From Clostridia bacterium (GTDB lineage: Bacteria; Bacillota; Clostridia; Christensenellales; Aristaeellaceae), in contig JAFXVR010000050.1 of NCBI GenBank assembly GCA_017534885.1, positions 1 to 64,000 on the forward strand: DNA of 64,000 nt. Direction: 5' to 3'. Positions 8,515 through 14,984 of the stretch are shown here, piece by piece. The notes beneath the pieces are model-generated. The model searched no databases. It was not told the origin of the DNA and saw nothing but the letters and a program-made list of their open reading frames with translations. Position 1 is the stretch's first letter. Each line of letters opens with the position of its first letter. The position numbers were made by a program, and so were the translations under genes.

Positions 8515-9315
8515 TTACTCGTCCGCCTCGTGCATCTCAGTCCCGTTGGCAAGGGCTTTGGCGTACTTTTCGCTCATCAGGCCGCTGGCATACAGGTACT
8601 TCTCGCCGTTGAAGGGCGCTTCGCAGACCTTGATGTCCTGATACTCAGGATTCTCCTGCATCTGCGCGATGATCACTTCCATCCGCCCCTTGTCCAGGAA
8701 GAAGGGCTGGCGGGCAAAGTAGTACACCGGCGTAGGGGTCGGGAAGGCCTTGCAGTTGAAGCGCACCATCTCGGCCACCGTGCGGGCGTCGTCCTTCTCG
8801 AGAGTCAGCATGGCGATCTTTGCGTAGTTGTGAGCCATCAGCTCCTCGGAGAAGAAGTAGAGATCCTTCGAGCCCTGCACGGTCAGGATGTCCGCGCAGG
8901 AAGGATCGGCCTGCATCTCGGCGATCAGCGCGTCCACGCTCTCGCCCTCGTCCGCCTTGATCAGCGCCTTGGGGGTGATCAGCGCGGAGCGGCAGCGGGT
9001 ACGGATGAAGTCCGCCAGCAGCTGGGCTTTGGTCTTCTGCGGCTCAGGGGGCAGCTCAGGCTCCGGCTCAGAAGCCGGGAAGGGATCCTTCACCTCGGGC
9101 AGGGACTGCATGTACTCGAAGATATCCGGCTTCTTTGCCTCACCGTCCATCACCTGGGTCGCCTTTTCCTGCATTTCAAGCTTTTCGAGCTTGGGATTGT
9201 CCAGCTCCTTGTTGACCGCCGGATCCAGCGCGTCGCTGAACTCGCCGGGGATTTCGGAGGGCTTGAACTCCACTTCCTTTGAGAATCCGGGCTTTCTGCG
9301 TCCAAACAGTGCCAT
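8515..9315 (-). CDS. YdhW-like protein of an AOR-family redox operon
   Basis: 266 residues, soluble. The first 95 are charged and proline-rich, probably disordered; the rest is globular with repeated alpha/beta segments such as CADILTVQGSKDLYFFSEEL and FNGEKYLYASGLMSEKYAKA, suggesting an internal duplication. There are no cysteine clusters. By position it is the third gene after a Tat-exported ferredoxin and an AOR-family enzyme, matching ydhY-ydhV-ydhW, whose YdhW has no assigned reaction. I infer the YdhW family mainly from this context. An AAGGAGTG site precedes the ATG. Confidence 0.6.
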   Translation of the reverse strand: MALFGRRKPGFSKEVEFKPSEIPGEFSDALDPAVNKELDNPKLEKLEMQEKATQVMDGEAKKPDIFEYMQSLPEVKDPFPASEPEPELPPEPQKTKAQLLADFIRTRCRSALITPKALIKADEGESVDALIAEMQADPSCADILTVQGSKDLYFFSEELMAHNYAKIAMLTLEKDDARTVAEMVRFNCKAFPTPTPVYYFARQPFFLDKGRMEVIIAQMQENPEYQDIKVCEAPFNGEKYLYASGLMSEKYAKALANGTEMHEADE

Positions 9316-11670: not shown

Positions 11671-12309
11671 TCAGATCGCCTGAGAAACGGATACGATTTC
11701 GTCCCAGGGCACGATGGACAGCGCGCCGGAGGGACAGCCCTCTGCGCAGGCGCCGCACATGATGCACTTGGAGGACTTGTGGGTCTCGGGGTTGACGGTG
11801 GGCATGTGCCAGGGGCAGGCAGCCGTGCAGGCGCCGCAGCCGATGCACTTGTCCGTGTCAACCCGGCGGATGCCGTTCTCATCGGAGTAGATGGCCTGCA
11901 TCGGGCAGGCGTTGCCGCAGGCCGGATTTTCACACTGGCGGCAGGTGTCCGGGAAGTAGGTCCAGTTGTCCTCGGTGTACAGGCCCTGGCCGTTCCGGCT
12001 GGAATACAGGTTGCGGGTGACCTTGACGCGGGAGATGTAGCTGGAGCAGCAGCCGTCGTTGGTCAGGGTGCAGTTGATCTCACAGCGCTGGCAGCCCACG
12101 CAGCGGTCGGCGTCCACCACCAGGAGGCCCTGGGGGAAGGCCCAGACCCGCACCTTGTCCTCAGCCACAGCCTTTTCAGACACGCCCAGCACGCTGAGCA
12201 GTGAAGAGGACAGAGCCAGGCCGGCCAGGCTCTTGCCGCTCAGCTTCAGGAACTGACGGCGGGTATAGTCCTTGTCGAGAAAGCTCTTCCGGTCCATTGT
12301 TTCAGCCAT
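11671..12309 (-). CDS. Tat-exported 4Fe-4S ferredoxin-like subunit (YdhY-like)
   Basis: 212 residues from the ATG at 12309, chosen for its GGAGGAG site 7 bases upstream; the frame is open further but lacks a ribosome site there. A twin-arginine signal (YTRRQFLKLSG followed by a hydrophobic stretch) implies folded export through Tat. Four cysteine groups follow: CVGCQRCEINC, CRQCENPACGNACP, CIGCGACTAACP and CIMCGACAEGCP, giving four [4Fe-4S] clusters as in DMSO-reductase-type electron transfer subunits. It is the first gene of the operon. Oddly, the catalytic partner downstream has no export signal, so the pair may be exported together or the signal may serve as a membrane anchor. Confidence 0.87.
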   Translation of the reverse strand: MAETMDRKSFLDKDYTRRQFLKLSGKSLAGLALSSSLLSVLGVSEKAVAEDKVRVWAFPQGLLVVDADRCVGCQRCEINCTLTNDGCCSSYISRVKVTRNLYSSRNGQGLYTEDNWTYFPDTCRQCENPACGNACPMQAIYSDENGIRRVDTDKCIGCGACTAACPWHMPTVNPETHKSSKCIMCGACAEGCPSGALSIVPWDEIVSVSQAI

Positions 12310-12401
12310 GTTGCAACTCCTCCTTGCACAAATCGGGAAACGGATGGTGGGAAACGAACCAAAAGGAACCTGGCAGCCGCCAATCAGCCGTGTACACAAA
12401 A

Positions 12402-12483
12402 CACACAGGCCCACTGGCAATTGCCAAGCTCCTTCGCAAAAGGCAAGCGCCGCCGTCGCCGGCTGCACTCATTGGCCTGTACG
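12402..12483 (-). ncRNA. Structured 5' leader of the ydhYVW-like operon, possible riboswitch
   Basis: On the minus strand CGUACAGGCC (12483-12474) pairs over 10 bp with GGCCUGUGUG (12411-12402). This closing stem encloses two hairpins: GCCG-GCGA-CGGC with a GNRA tetraloop (12452-12463), and a UUGCC/GGCAA stem (12421-12446). Together they form a three-way junction. It lies in a leader of about 214 nt between a good promoter and the ferredoxin start. A molybdenum or tungsten cofactor riboswitch would fit the operon, but I could not match the Moco consensus with confidence. No intrinsic terminator follows, so any control would act on translation or through a protein. Confidence 0.45.
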
Positions 12484-12530
12484 GCCTCAGGGGTCGTATC
12501 AGGCTCGGAGCTTCCCTTGATCCTGAATGT

Positions 12531-12559
12531 ATTGTAACATATCCCGGGCGGTTTGAAAA
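12531..12559 (-). promoter_or_regulatory. Promoter of the ydhYVW-like operon
   Basis: TTTTCA, 17 bp, TACAAT on the minus strand; predicted start near 12524. The weak -35 together with repeats directly upstream suggests an activator-dependent promoter. Confidence 0.55.
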
Positions 12560-12653: not shown

Positions 12654-12682
12654 TGGACATTCATCCGGATTTCATCTATAAT
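12654..12682 (+). promoter_or_regulatory. Promoter for the transglutaminase-like gene
   Basis: TGGACA, 17 bp, TATAAT, about 50 bp before the start codon at 12735. It is divergent from the redox-operon promoter. Confidence 0.7.
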
Positions 12683-12734: not shown

Positions 12735-14984
12735 ATGCGCAAACACCTGTCTGCATCCCTGCTTGTTTTTCTGGCCCTGCTGACCCTCTGTGCGCTTCCG
12801 TCATTGGCTGACGGATATGTGGCCGACACCCCTGAGGCTCTGCTCAGCCTGATCCGCCCCCACCTGGAGCGGTGCGAGAGCTCGTTTGAAGTGCAGGTGA
12901 CCAGCGAGCTCAGCCGCCGCGTGTGGGACGATCAAGGCGGCGGCGACTTGCTGAGCGACTTCATGACAGTGCACGGCGTGCAGTCCTGGGGCACCTCCCG
13001 CACCGTCTTTGGCGCGACCCGCACTGTCGAGTTCACCAATGTGTCCTACTACGCCGGGTGCCGCATCCTGCTGGCCTGGCAGACCGGAGACACCTCATCC
13101 CTCTCCGCCCGGGAGGCCGCGGCACTGAGCGCGGCGCAGCGGTTTGTCAGCTCCCTTGCAGGCAGCGCGCTGGACAGGGAGCGGGCCATTCACGACTACA
13201 TCTGCGCGAATGTGGTTTACTTCACCGACGACATCAGCGATAACGACAACGACTGCGCCATCGGCGGACTGCTCAACGGCCTGGCGGACTGCGACGGCTA
13301 CTCGGATACCTTCTTTCTCCTGTGCAATATGGCCGGCATCCCCTGCCGCTTTGTGCACGGCACCACCCTCCAGGACAAGGACAAGAACAGCGACAGCACC
13401 CATATGTGGAATGCCATCCGCCTGGACGGCAAGTGGGTGATGACCGATGTGACCTGGGACGACAGCGAGCACGGCACCACCTACCTGTACTACAATATCG
13501 GCAGCCGCCGGATGGGGCTGAATCACTTCTGGGACGCCGCCGCGCTGGATTTCACGCCCGAAGCGGAGGATGACGGCGCGCTGCTGACCGCTGACCTCCG
13601 CTTTGCCAAAGTTGAAAGCTGGGAACAGATCGCGCTGATTCTGCGCGCCAGGGCTGCCGCCCGGGCCAGCCGCATCCGGGTGCAGGTCACGGCTGATCTG
13701 GGCATCAAGGAGAATTCAGAGCAGCTCTCCTCCCTCGCCTTTGACAGCGGCCTGAGATCCTTCCAGTGGGATATCAGCCAGGACGCCTTCGAGCTGTACG
13801 ACCTGGAATACCCTGAGTATTTTCGCTTCTGCGCCGATGAGAGCGACATTGTCAGCTATGTCGATTCCTTTGCGGGCTGGGAGCAGCCGCCCGCCGAGTT
13901 CACCGTCTTCTTTGACAAGTCCCTGGGCAGCGCGCTCTGCGGCAGTGAGTGCGCCGGGCTGGACAGGGTGCTGTACGCCTCGAAGCTTGCCGCGCCGATC
14001 CACTACACCTACTCCTCCGGCCTGACCTCCGTCACGGTTCAGAATCCCGTCTACCAGCCCGACACCCCTCATGACCGCGCAGAAAGCTGGGAGGAAGTGG
14101 CGGCGGTTCTCCGCAGCCGGGCAGTCCAGAGAGCCAGCCGGATCCGGGTATTTGTGCCCGCCAGTCTGAACATCTGGGATCAGTCGGACAGGCTTTCTTC
14201 CCTCGTCTACGGCTGCGGTGTATCCTCCTTTCAGTGGGACATCAGCCGGTATGTCTTCGAGCTGTACGACCTGGAGTACCCCGGATATTTCCGCTTCTGC
14301 GCCGACGAGAGCGAAATCGTCAGCTATGTCAATTCCTTTGCCGACCAGGCCAGGCTGCCTTCGGAGTTCACCATCTTCTTTGACGAGTCCCTGGGCAGCG
14401 CGCTCTGCGGCAAAAACTGCGCCGGGCTGGACAGGGTGCTCTATGGCACGCGGCTCGCCGCCCCGATCCACTACAGCTATTCCTCCGGCCTGACCTCTGT
14501 CACCGTGCTGAGTCCCGCGTATCTGCCCGGCGACGTGCCCCTTGCCACGGACGAGGACAGCCTCTATACCGTGCTGAAGAAGGCCCTGTCCAAACAGCCG
14601 GCGGAGGTGCAGTTTGCCTACGGCGGCCAGCTGGATCTGGAACGGCAGAACGCCCTGGTGGTTCGCACCGTGGCCTCCCTGGGCGTGTCCAGCTCCTTCT
14701 ATTCCTCCACCGGCGGCGGATGCCGGATGTGGCTGAGCGGCCTGCAGTACTATGACGAGTTCAGGGTCGTCAGCACAAAGAAACAGGCGCTGAGCTACAT
14801 GAAGTCCTGCAAAAAGGCCGGAATCAGCACCTTTGTTCTGTTCTGCCCGGCGGATGTGTTCAGCGACCTGATGGAAAACAACGCCGGGCGGCTGTTCAGC
14901 ATGCTGGACGAGGCTGGCTTTCAGGATGAATCCATCAGCTATTCCGAGGAGTACGGCCTGATCCAGATTTCAAACGCCCGGTGA
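12735..14984 (+). CDS. Secreted transglutaminase-like protein with a duplicated domain
   Basis: 749 residues with signal peptide MRKHLSASLLVFLALLTLC. A transglutaminase-like cysteine protease domain covers about 100-260 with the expected triad Cys186 (ADCDGYSD), His223 (STHMWNAI) and Asp238 (VMTDVTWDD). Then come two copies of a domain of about 156 residues (from 294 and from 450) that keep phrases such as FELYDLEYP, YFRFCADES, SLGSALCG and APIHYSYSSGLTSVTV. A unique C-terminal region of about 140 residues follows. The enzyme probably acts on extracellular peptides or cell-wall peptide; the repeats may bind substrate. AGGAGG precedes the ATG. Confidence 0.82.
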   Translation: MRKHLSASLLVFLALLTLCALPSLADGYVADTPEALLSLIRPHLERCESSFEVQVTSELSRRVWDDQGGGDLLSDFMTVHGVQSWGTSRTVFGATRTVEFTNVSYYAGCRILLAWQTGDTSSLSAREAAALSAAQRFVSSLAGSALDRERAIHDYICANVVYFTDDISDNDNDCAIGGLLNGLADCDGYSDTFFLLCNMAGIPCRFVHGTTLQDKDKNSDSTHMWNAIRLDGKWVMTDVTWDDSEHGTTYLYYNIGSRRMGLNHFWDAAALDFTPEAEDDGALLTADLRFAKVESWEQIALILRARAAARASRIRVQVTADLGIKENSEQLSSLAFDSGLRSFQWDISQDAFELYDLEYPEYFRFCADESDIVSYVDSFAGWEQPPAEFTVFFDKSLGSALCGSECAGLDRVLYASKLAAPIHYTYSSGLTSVTVQNPVYQPDTPHDRAESWEEVAAVLRSRAVQRASRIRVFVPASLNIWDQSDRLSSLVYGCGVSSFQWDISRYVFELYDLEYPGYFRFCADESEIVSYVNSFADQARLPSEFTIFFDESLGSALCGKNCAGLDRVLYGTRLAAPIHYSYSSGLTSVTVLSPAYLPGDVPLATDEDSLYTVLKKALSKQPAEVQFAYGGQLDLERQNALVVRTVASLGVSSSFYSSTGGGCRMWLSGLQYYDEFRVVSTKKQALSYMKSCKKAGISTFVLFCPADVFSDLMENNAGRLFSMLDEAGFQDESISYSEEYGLIQISNAR
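13614..14549 (+). repeat. In-frame tandem duplication of a 468-bp domain
   Basis: Unit 1 starts at 13614 and unit 2 at 14082, both with codons for ESWE. The match persists at DNA level over long stretches, for example CCCTGGGCAGCGCGCTCTGC in both, indicating a fairly recent duplication inside the transglutaminase-like gene. Confidence 0.8.

Follow-up and report, generated by a model that had tools for sequence, protein, structure and literature searches.

The window, by which we mean the whole stretch of 64,000 nucleotides that was analysed, comes from a Clostridia bacterium of gut type and carries on its minus strand an operon encoding a ydhY-like ferredoxin subunit, a YdhV-like aldehyde ferredoxin oxidoreductase (AOR) and a YdhW-like protein (Table 1). 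The ydhY-like ferredoxin (12309-11671) opens with the twin-arginine motif TRRQFLKLSG, which is suggestive of export. A consensus scan placed a sigma-70-like promoter with an extended TG (TTTTCA-17-TACAAT) on the minus strand at 12559-12531, where it opens the AOR-operon leader; both this promoter and the length of the leader, which runs for about 215 nt and ends at the ydhY ATG at 12309, agree with an earlier note on this DNA. Of 73 leaders, 72 have a −10-like hexamer in the 60 nt preceding them, compared with 62.4 expected from shuffles, an excess that supports the promoter weakly. The divergent neighbour on the plus strand (12735-14984) probably encodes a secreted protein with a transglutaminase-like region and a weak match to NF045980, and has a good promoter-like site of its own at 12654-12682. 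In L205, L210, L212, L214 and L215, the opposite strand upstream resembles a tatA gene, judging from a reading of the translation.

Table 1 Predicted features of the AOR operon and its leader RNA in the window.
Feature	Positions	Strand	Evidence
Promoter: TTTTCA (-35), 17-nt spacer, TACAAT (-10), extended TG	12531..12559	-	Consensus scan, 9/12 matches
Predicted aptamer, Moco/Tuco family without P3, 88 nt	12426..12513	-	Covariation; R1 match; RF01055 matches to orthologues
P1, 5' strand AAGCUCC	12507..12513	-	MFE of the aptamer alone; pair counts
P2, with conserved CCC...GG tip replacing the 11-nt GAAA receptor	12475..12504	-	Double changes
P4, GCGA (GNRA) tetraloop cap at 12456-12459	12445..12470	-	8/11 pairs with double changes; loop tally
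P5, outer G-C and inner C-G pair enclosing CUUUU	12436..12444	-	Invariant in 74/74 family leaders
P1, 3' strand GGAGCUU, switching strand common to P1 and terminator	12426..12432	-	Stepwise folding
Terminator-like hairpin (expression platform), -42.9 kcal/mol	12365..12432	-	Folding; terminator search
U-rich tract after the hairpin, UUUUGGUUCGUUUCC	12350..12364	-	Sequence
Ribosome-binding site AAGGAGGAG	12317..12325	-	Sequence
ydhY-like ferredoxin subunit of 212 aa with TRRQFLKLSG as twin-arginine motif	11671..12309	-	NF007382 247.8 bits, over cut-off; Fer4 domains
YdhV-like aldehyde ferredoxin oxidoreductase (AOR), 731 aa	9434..11629	-	NF007354 829.1 bits, just below cut-off 868; AFOR_N + AFOR_C
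YdhW-like protein, operon gene 3	8515..9315	-	NF007411 125.7 bits, cut-off 203 not reached

The AOR-operon leader contains a real, conserved RNA. The 215-nt leader folds at -98.7 kcal/mol (z = -4.6), and none of 200 dinucleotide shuffles was as stable; a 165-nt leader gave z = -4.9. When 100 genomes were searched at the DNA level, this stretch turned up in eight relatives in addition to the window's own genome, and the nine leaders align, nearly free of gaps, as four helices, P1, P2, P4 and P5, in which 17 of 30 pairs show double changes and 91% of cells are paired. Neither value was matched by any of 500 shuffles, and slid structures pair in at most 44% of cells. A covariance model built from these nine leaders (R1; the window copy, L015, is among them) matched the window at 12427-12513 with 99.0 bits, the window being one of the nine model sequences. 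Searched against 391 genomes of the class, R1 gave matches in 23 genomes, at 28 places including the window's own, which leaves 27 further RNAs. Among these 27, double changes rise to 23 of 30 pairs, a count that 5 of 500 shuffles equalled, and the covariation score was equalled by no shuffle of 500; for P2, the corresponding figures are 7 of 11 pairs in the nine leaders and 10 of 11 in the class-wide RNAs. Folded in isolation, the window aptamer gives exactly P1, P2, P4 and P5 as its minimum free energy (MFE) structure, with four nucleotides connecting P2 and P4 and no P3 stem.

The earlier note had drawn a three-way junction with two hairpins and a 10-bp closing stem. Its GNRA-capped hairpin corresponds to P4 (loop GCGA at 12459-12456), a further hairpin was likewise confirmed, and the general picture of a multi-branched fold stands, being far more stable than shuffles. 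The closing stem, in contrast, was drawn wrongly: the proposed pairing of 12402-12411 with 12474-12483 is missing from both the MFE and the centroid structures, and the aptamer is in fact closed by P1, in which 12507-12513 pair with 12426-12432. Positions 12474-12483 are part of P2 and its junction, and positions 12402-12411 are part of the terminator hairpin. Nor are the two segments conserved as a stem in related leaders: across 73 leaders, the mean longest run of pairing between the P2 3' strand, placed by an approximate rule, and the downstream sequence was 6.19, compared with 6.10 in shuffles. Because the stem is wrong, the covariation test that the earlier note had proposed at its coordinates would have failed despite the presence of a real RNA.

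The window copy itself has no match to the Rfam Moco model RF01055 at E ≤ 10, so that the scan recommended in the earlier note came out empty; weak matches of the window leader to other Rfam entries (MIR862, mir-1179, RF_site1 and Spy1786666) lie far below their cut-offs and were discarded as chance. The orthologous leaders tell more. RF01055, for which the cut-off is 36 bits, matches leader L002 with 34.7 bits (E = 3.9e-07 for a search space of 141 nt). Applied to 40 genomes of the host family, it recovers 21 of 47 R1 places in AOR leaders at E ≤ 1, of which 9 exceed the cut-off (best 44.1 bits). When L002 was aligned to RF01055 residue by residue, P3 was missing and everything else was in register. 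The alignment, the covariation and the MFE structure of the aptamer agree on a P1-P2-P4-P5 architecture with a conserved junction, as in Moco RNAs, and the GNRA tetraloop on P4, another feature of that family, is GCGA in the window and is present in 73 of 74 leaders from the host family. The tetraloop receptor usual in P2 of Moco RNAs is absent, P2 ending in CCC...GG instead. This receptor is not universal: in the 2008 description, all four GCAA members of the Moco family are without it (PMC2408646), and its lack is therefore no ground for excluding the leader RNA. That the earlier note could not line up the Moco consensus is explained by the lack of P3, the replacement of the tetraloop and its receptor and the different outer pair in P5.

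These comparisons indicate that the leader RNA is a P3-lacking, compact and divergent member of the Moco/"Tuco" family, a homology established through intermediate sequences. With the Moco RNA motif (RF01055; Regulski et al. 2008, PMC2408646) it shares the helix order, the core CUCCGAG...GNRA...AAGGAG, a GNRA-capped P4, the position before genes for Mo/W-cofactor enzymes and a platform that uses a P1 strand. It differs in the lack of P3, a GYRA in place of a GAAA loop, the lack of the 11-nt receptor in P2, an outer P5 pair that is G-C and not C-G or U-A, a length of 88 nt, a predicted ON direction and, for the window copy, a score below the Rfam cut-off. The suggestion of the earlier note that this may be a cofactor-sensing RNA and a divergent Moco member thus gains support from RF01055 scores of up to 44.1 bits and the P3-lacking Moco architecture, whereas its alternative, a new class, is not supported. 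A class unrelated to Moco and closed by the 10-bp stem could appeal to the window copy having no Rfam match, but it is contradicted both by the orthologous leaders that match RF01055 above the cut-off and by the lack of conservation of that stem, and we rejected it as highly improbable; the AOR-linked RNA is a variant within the known family. As only 9 of 47 leaders exceed the Rfam threshold, many AOR-linked copies are probably unannotated.

When R1 was applied to 300 genomes of the host family, it matched 87 places in 66 genomes. Of the 74 matches with at least 51 bits, which include the window copy and the other eight leaders used for building R1, 73 precede a ydhY homologue by about 33-213 nt, and for the remaining one the contig ends 56 nt downstream. 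In the reverse direction, an AOR protein search of 300 genomes of the family found AOR in 66 of them, and 66 of the 71 AOR genes with an N-terminus have the RNA upstream, the placement before Mo/W-cofactor genes that is characteristic of the Moco family. The other five genes lie 17-535 nt from a contig end (for G210, by coordinate match to a named record); thus, there is no evaluable counter-example in the family. Outside it, the association of the RNA with AOR is looser. At the phylum level, R1 matched 14 of 90 sampled AOR loci (one set of 30 and another of 60, the latter rerun with 7 earlier positives), and no R1 match was found upstream of AOR operons in Faecalibacterium, Dielma, Anaerocolumna, Oribacterium, Proteus and others, from which it follows that the AOR enzyme can do without the RNA. 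The P3-lacking relatives in the class precede tupA, moeA, moaA and AOR genes. In the AOR tree, leaders of the G-C type fall on several separated branches with RNA-less AORs between them, a pattern that is compatible with repeated gain as well as with ancient presence followed by loss and does not tell the two apart. At one place in a draft genome (L258:1510-2900), a P3-lacking RNA lies upstream of an AOR frame that is broken by many stops.

The AOR-linked RNAs form a distinct variant, in which the loop is GYRA, the receptor for GAAA is lacking and P5 has G-C as its outer pair, whereas nearly all relatives that do not precede AOR have a GAAA loop and a C-G or U-A pair. In the 74 AOR leaders of the host family, the P4 loop is GCAA in 53, GCGA in 16, GUGA and GUAA in 2 each and ACAA in 1, and all 74 have G-C at the outer position of P5. 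Eight of the 27 class-wide RNAs precede AOR (7 with a GYRA loop and 7 with G-C); all 19 others have GAAA, and G-C occurs in one only (L148, with G-C outside and C-A inside, kept as the sole class-wide exception). Over the 27 RNAs together, the outer pair is C-G in 10, G-C in 8, U-A in 8 and otherwise in 1, an exchange which implies that this pair truly covaries. Phylum-wide, a reading of the alignment gave G-C in 10 of 14 AOR leaders; among 32 phylum rows from the best RF01055 loci, it occurs in none, neither in the one AOR-linked row nor in the 31 non-AOR rows (the genes following these rows were assigned by family search for 11 proteins, and the rest were checked for AOR similarity only). 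Taken over all AOR leaders outside the host family, G-C is found in 17 of 23, although these counts are not independent, L302, L289, L311 and L305, for example, all coming from one family (f126). A truncated 35-nt match with GAAA that reads G-C (L099) was set aside before counting; L258, with GAAA and C-G, was counted as AOR, and in L090 (C-C) and L150 (U-U) the outer P5 positions do not pair. The exception mentioned above (L148:1427-1521) is a P3-lacking RNA before a gene of no assigned family.

Pairs of tetraloop and receptor are a known means of docking, and by analogy the CCC...GG tip of P2 may receive the GYRA loop. The P3-lacking Tuco/Wco RNAs of the same class, which lie before tupA, moeA and hydrogenase genes, share with the window family the lack of P3, the core and the overall pairing, but have GAAA loops, the receptor and mostly C-G or U-A at P5; the window family, unlike them, has hosts that gave no TupA match in any of the 40 genomes tested. 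The literature already covers Moco RNAs without P3, together with their terminators and their occurrence in tandem (PMC2408646; PMC9481103; PMC9971707). A literature search confined to titles and abstracts, with subscription papers mostly beyond its reach, found no AOR-linked Moco subtype.

Downstream of the aptamer, the first seven bases of the terminator-like hairpin are the 3' strand of P1, and in the folding model P1 and this hairpin are mutually exclusive. Folded step by step, the window leader keeps P1 up to a transcript end at 12370 and has lost it to the 3' arm of the hairpin by 12365, just ahead of the U tract; this tract is interrupted and hence weak in the window (UUUUGGUUCG). In the end the two states differ by 5.6 kcal/mol, in our judgement within the reach of a ligand. 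The arrangement is common among the orthologues: in 59 of 73 parsed leaders (one of 74 was unparsed), the 5' arm of the best terminator is the P1 3' strand, compared with 6.6% of 438 shuffles, and in the other 14 no P1-overlapping terminator was found (9 other, 5 none). A first measure of the platform, P1 nucleotides paired downstream in the MFE structure, had separated poorly (61 of 68 leaders vs. 71% of shuffles, 6 of 74 leaders having no parsed start) and was replaced by the terminator search. Platforms that look ON are found in 8 of 14 AOR leaders at the phylum level and in 6 of 8 at the class level, compared with 3 of 19 non-AOR leaders of the class and 8 of 29 parsed P3-containing leaders (30 given, L123 unparsed); this last set, whose weaker rows come from the same R1 search and so cover the Moco RNAs incompletely, is mixed, and no general logic is claimed for it.

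Because the P1 strand is used by the terminator and displaced late, a ligand should switch the operon ON. In the absence of ligand, the P1 3' strand (GGAGCUU) would be captured by the downstream hairpin, which ends in the U-rich tract, and transcription would stop; with the pterin cofactor bound, P1 would stay closed, the hairpin would be blocked and ydhY-AOR-ydhW would be transcribed, such that apo-enzyme is made when its cofactor is at hand. The leader is thus, very probably, a P3-lacking Moco/Tuco riboswitch that turns on this operon in the presence of pterin cofactor. We infer that the hairpin terminates transcription, that the ligand turns the operon on and that this ligand would be the Mo- or W-pterin cofactor of AOR. 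The opposite logic, in which the ligand represses as it does with the E. coli moaA RNA, finds some encouragement in the P3-containing leaders of the same genomes, where the terminator often stands apart from P1 (no overlap in 21 of 29 parsed leaders), but the terminator of 59 of 73 AOR leaders uses the P1 strand and none of the 73 was called as an anti-terminator type, so that we hold repression to be improbable. Improbable, too, is a protein-bound anti-terminator or attenuator in place of a metabolite sensor: such a reading could draw on the original description of the family, at which time no in vitro binding of cofactor to Moco RNAs had been demonstrated (PMC2408646), yet conservation is centred on the junction and on P1 and P5, elements common to the Moco family, and that family responds genetically to Moco in E. 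coli, according to the same paper.

For an ON switch responding to pterin cofactor, the ligand itself may be either a tungsten cofactor supplied by ModABC uptake or nucleotide-free bis-MPT with either metal. In Regulski 2008 (PMC2408646), the division of the Moco family between molybdenum and tungsten rests on gene context, without in vitro ligand binding at the time, and loss of P3 is tied to tungsten, 17 of 19 organisms with P3-lacking RNAs carrying tungsten genes. The AOR leaders lack P3 as the Tuco/Wco subgroup does, but the tungsten genes of that subgroup's hosts did not appear: the tungstate importer TupA was found in 0 of 40 host genomes (positive control, 5 of 5) and WtpA in 0 of 14, these being mostly drafts in which single absences may be gaps. 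MobA gave no match in the window's genome and, among 13 genomes searched, was clear in 2 and weak in 2, with the same caveat that draft genomes can hide a gene. Given the lack of TupA and WtpA in these hosts, we file the leader RNA as a P3-lacking Moco-family RNA and not as a tungsten riboswitch; with no TupA found in 40 hosts and no MobA in the window's genome, the published rule that no P3 means tungsten may not hold for AOR leaders.

A tungsten-specific sensor, which is a narrower version of the preferred explanation and differs from it in the ligand, would bind the W form of the cofactor and switch AOR on only once tungsten is loaded. We consider this a serious possibility, if short of probable. 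The absence of P3, the affiliation of the target with a tungsten oxidoreductase family, the published co-occurrence with tungsten genes and the position of the same-class P3-lacking relatives L136, L138, L145, L150 and L155 before tupA all point this way, and ModABC is able to carry tungstate too (PMC13328260); the searches for TupA and WtpA speak against it, as does the preference of E. coli YdhV, the closest studied relative, for Mo (PMC9103625). YdhV/YdhY are placed among the class V tungsten-oxidoreductases, some of which have been proposed to be molybdoenzymes when TupABC is absent (PMC13328260), and the cofactor of E. coli YdhV is bis-Mo-MPT, bis-MGD being rejected (PMC9103625). The latter observation favours another narrower version, in which the AOR-linked variant (no P3, GYRA, G-C at P5) would recognise bis-MPT with Mo or W, the form bound by YdhV-like enzymes, and P3-containing RNAs would respond to the Moco form, through which molybdate uptake is repressed. 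The distribution of the outer G-C pair between AOR and non-AOR leaders, the lack of TupA and WtpA in the hosts searched and of a MobA match in the window's genome, and the presence in that genome of a P3-containing RNA before modAB are consistent with such a sensor. However, 6 of 23 AOR leaders outside the host family are without the G-C pair, the features may have been inherited with the operon through shared ancestry, and the MobA evidence comes from 13 genomes with two clear matches, in drafts that can hide a gene; we put this version forward as a tentative and rather unlikely one.

It is conceivable, on a correspondingly speculative footing, that these RNAs make up a third, largely AOR-linked type of Moco aptamer, with no P3, a GYRA loop and a CC-GG tip for it to dock on in place of GAAA and the 11-nt receptor, an inverted outer P5 pair and nucleotide-free bis-MPT with Mo or W as its ligand. 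If this were true, the published reading of P3 as a mark of Mo or W would really be a reading of the cofactor form, and the ON switch would serve the very enzyme that binds the bis-MPT form. The AOR-linked variant would, in addition, provide a switch inducible by cofactor for enzymes of unsettled substrate and metal.

The same genome (G000) offers a natural counterpart to set beside the AOR leader, a canonical P3-containing Moco RNA (L011, C57:60619-60753) that precedes modA- and modB-like genes, named from their translations. It belongs to the same family and has the same core, but differs from the AOR leader in having P3, a GAAA loop, the receptor CCUAAAG...CAUGG, a U-A pair at P5 and a position before a molybdate transporter. 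Judged by eye, one strand of its P1 might form an anti-terminator (OFF), but the terminator scan placed this leader in the class 'other'. One genome with a P3-containing RNA at modAB and a P3-lacking RNA at AOR, in which no tungstate importer or MobA was found, makes it possible to decide cleanly between metal and cofactor form as what P3 reads. By a count from the RF01055 list, 34 of 40 genomes of the host family also carry a canonical Moco RNA of at least 57 bits. In several relatives (L091-L098, e.g. L092:624-736 and 801-868), two Moco-type RNAs, both with a GAAA loop, form a tandem pair, their starts about 173-189 nt apart; L100, L105, L106 and L112 cover four such tandem places, and the gene downstream is modA-like, as read from the translation.
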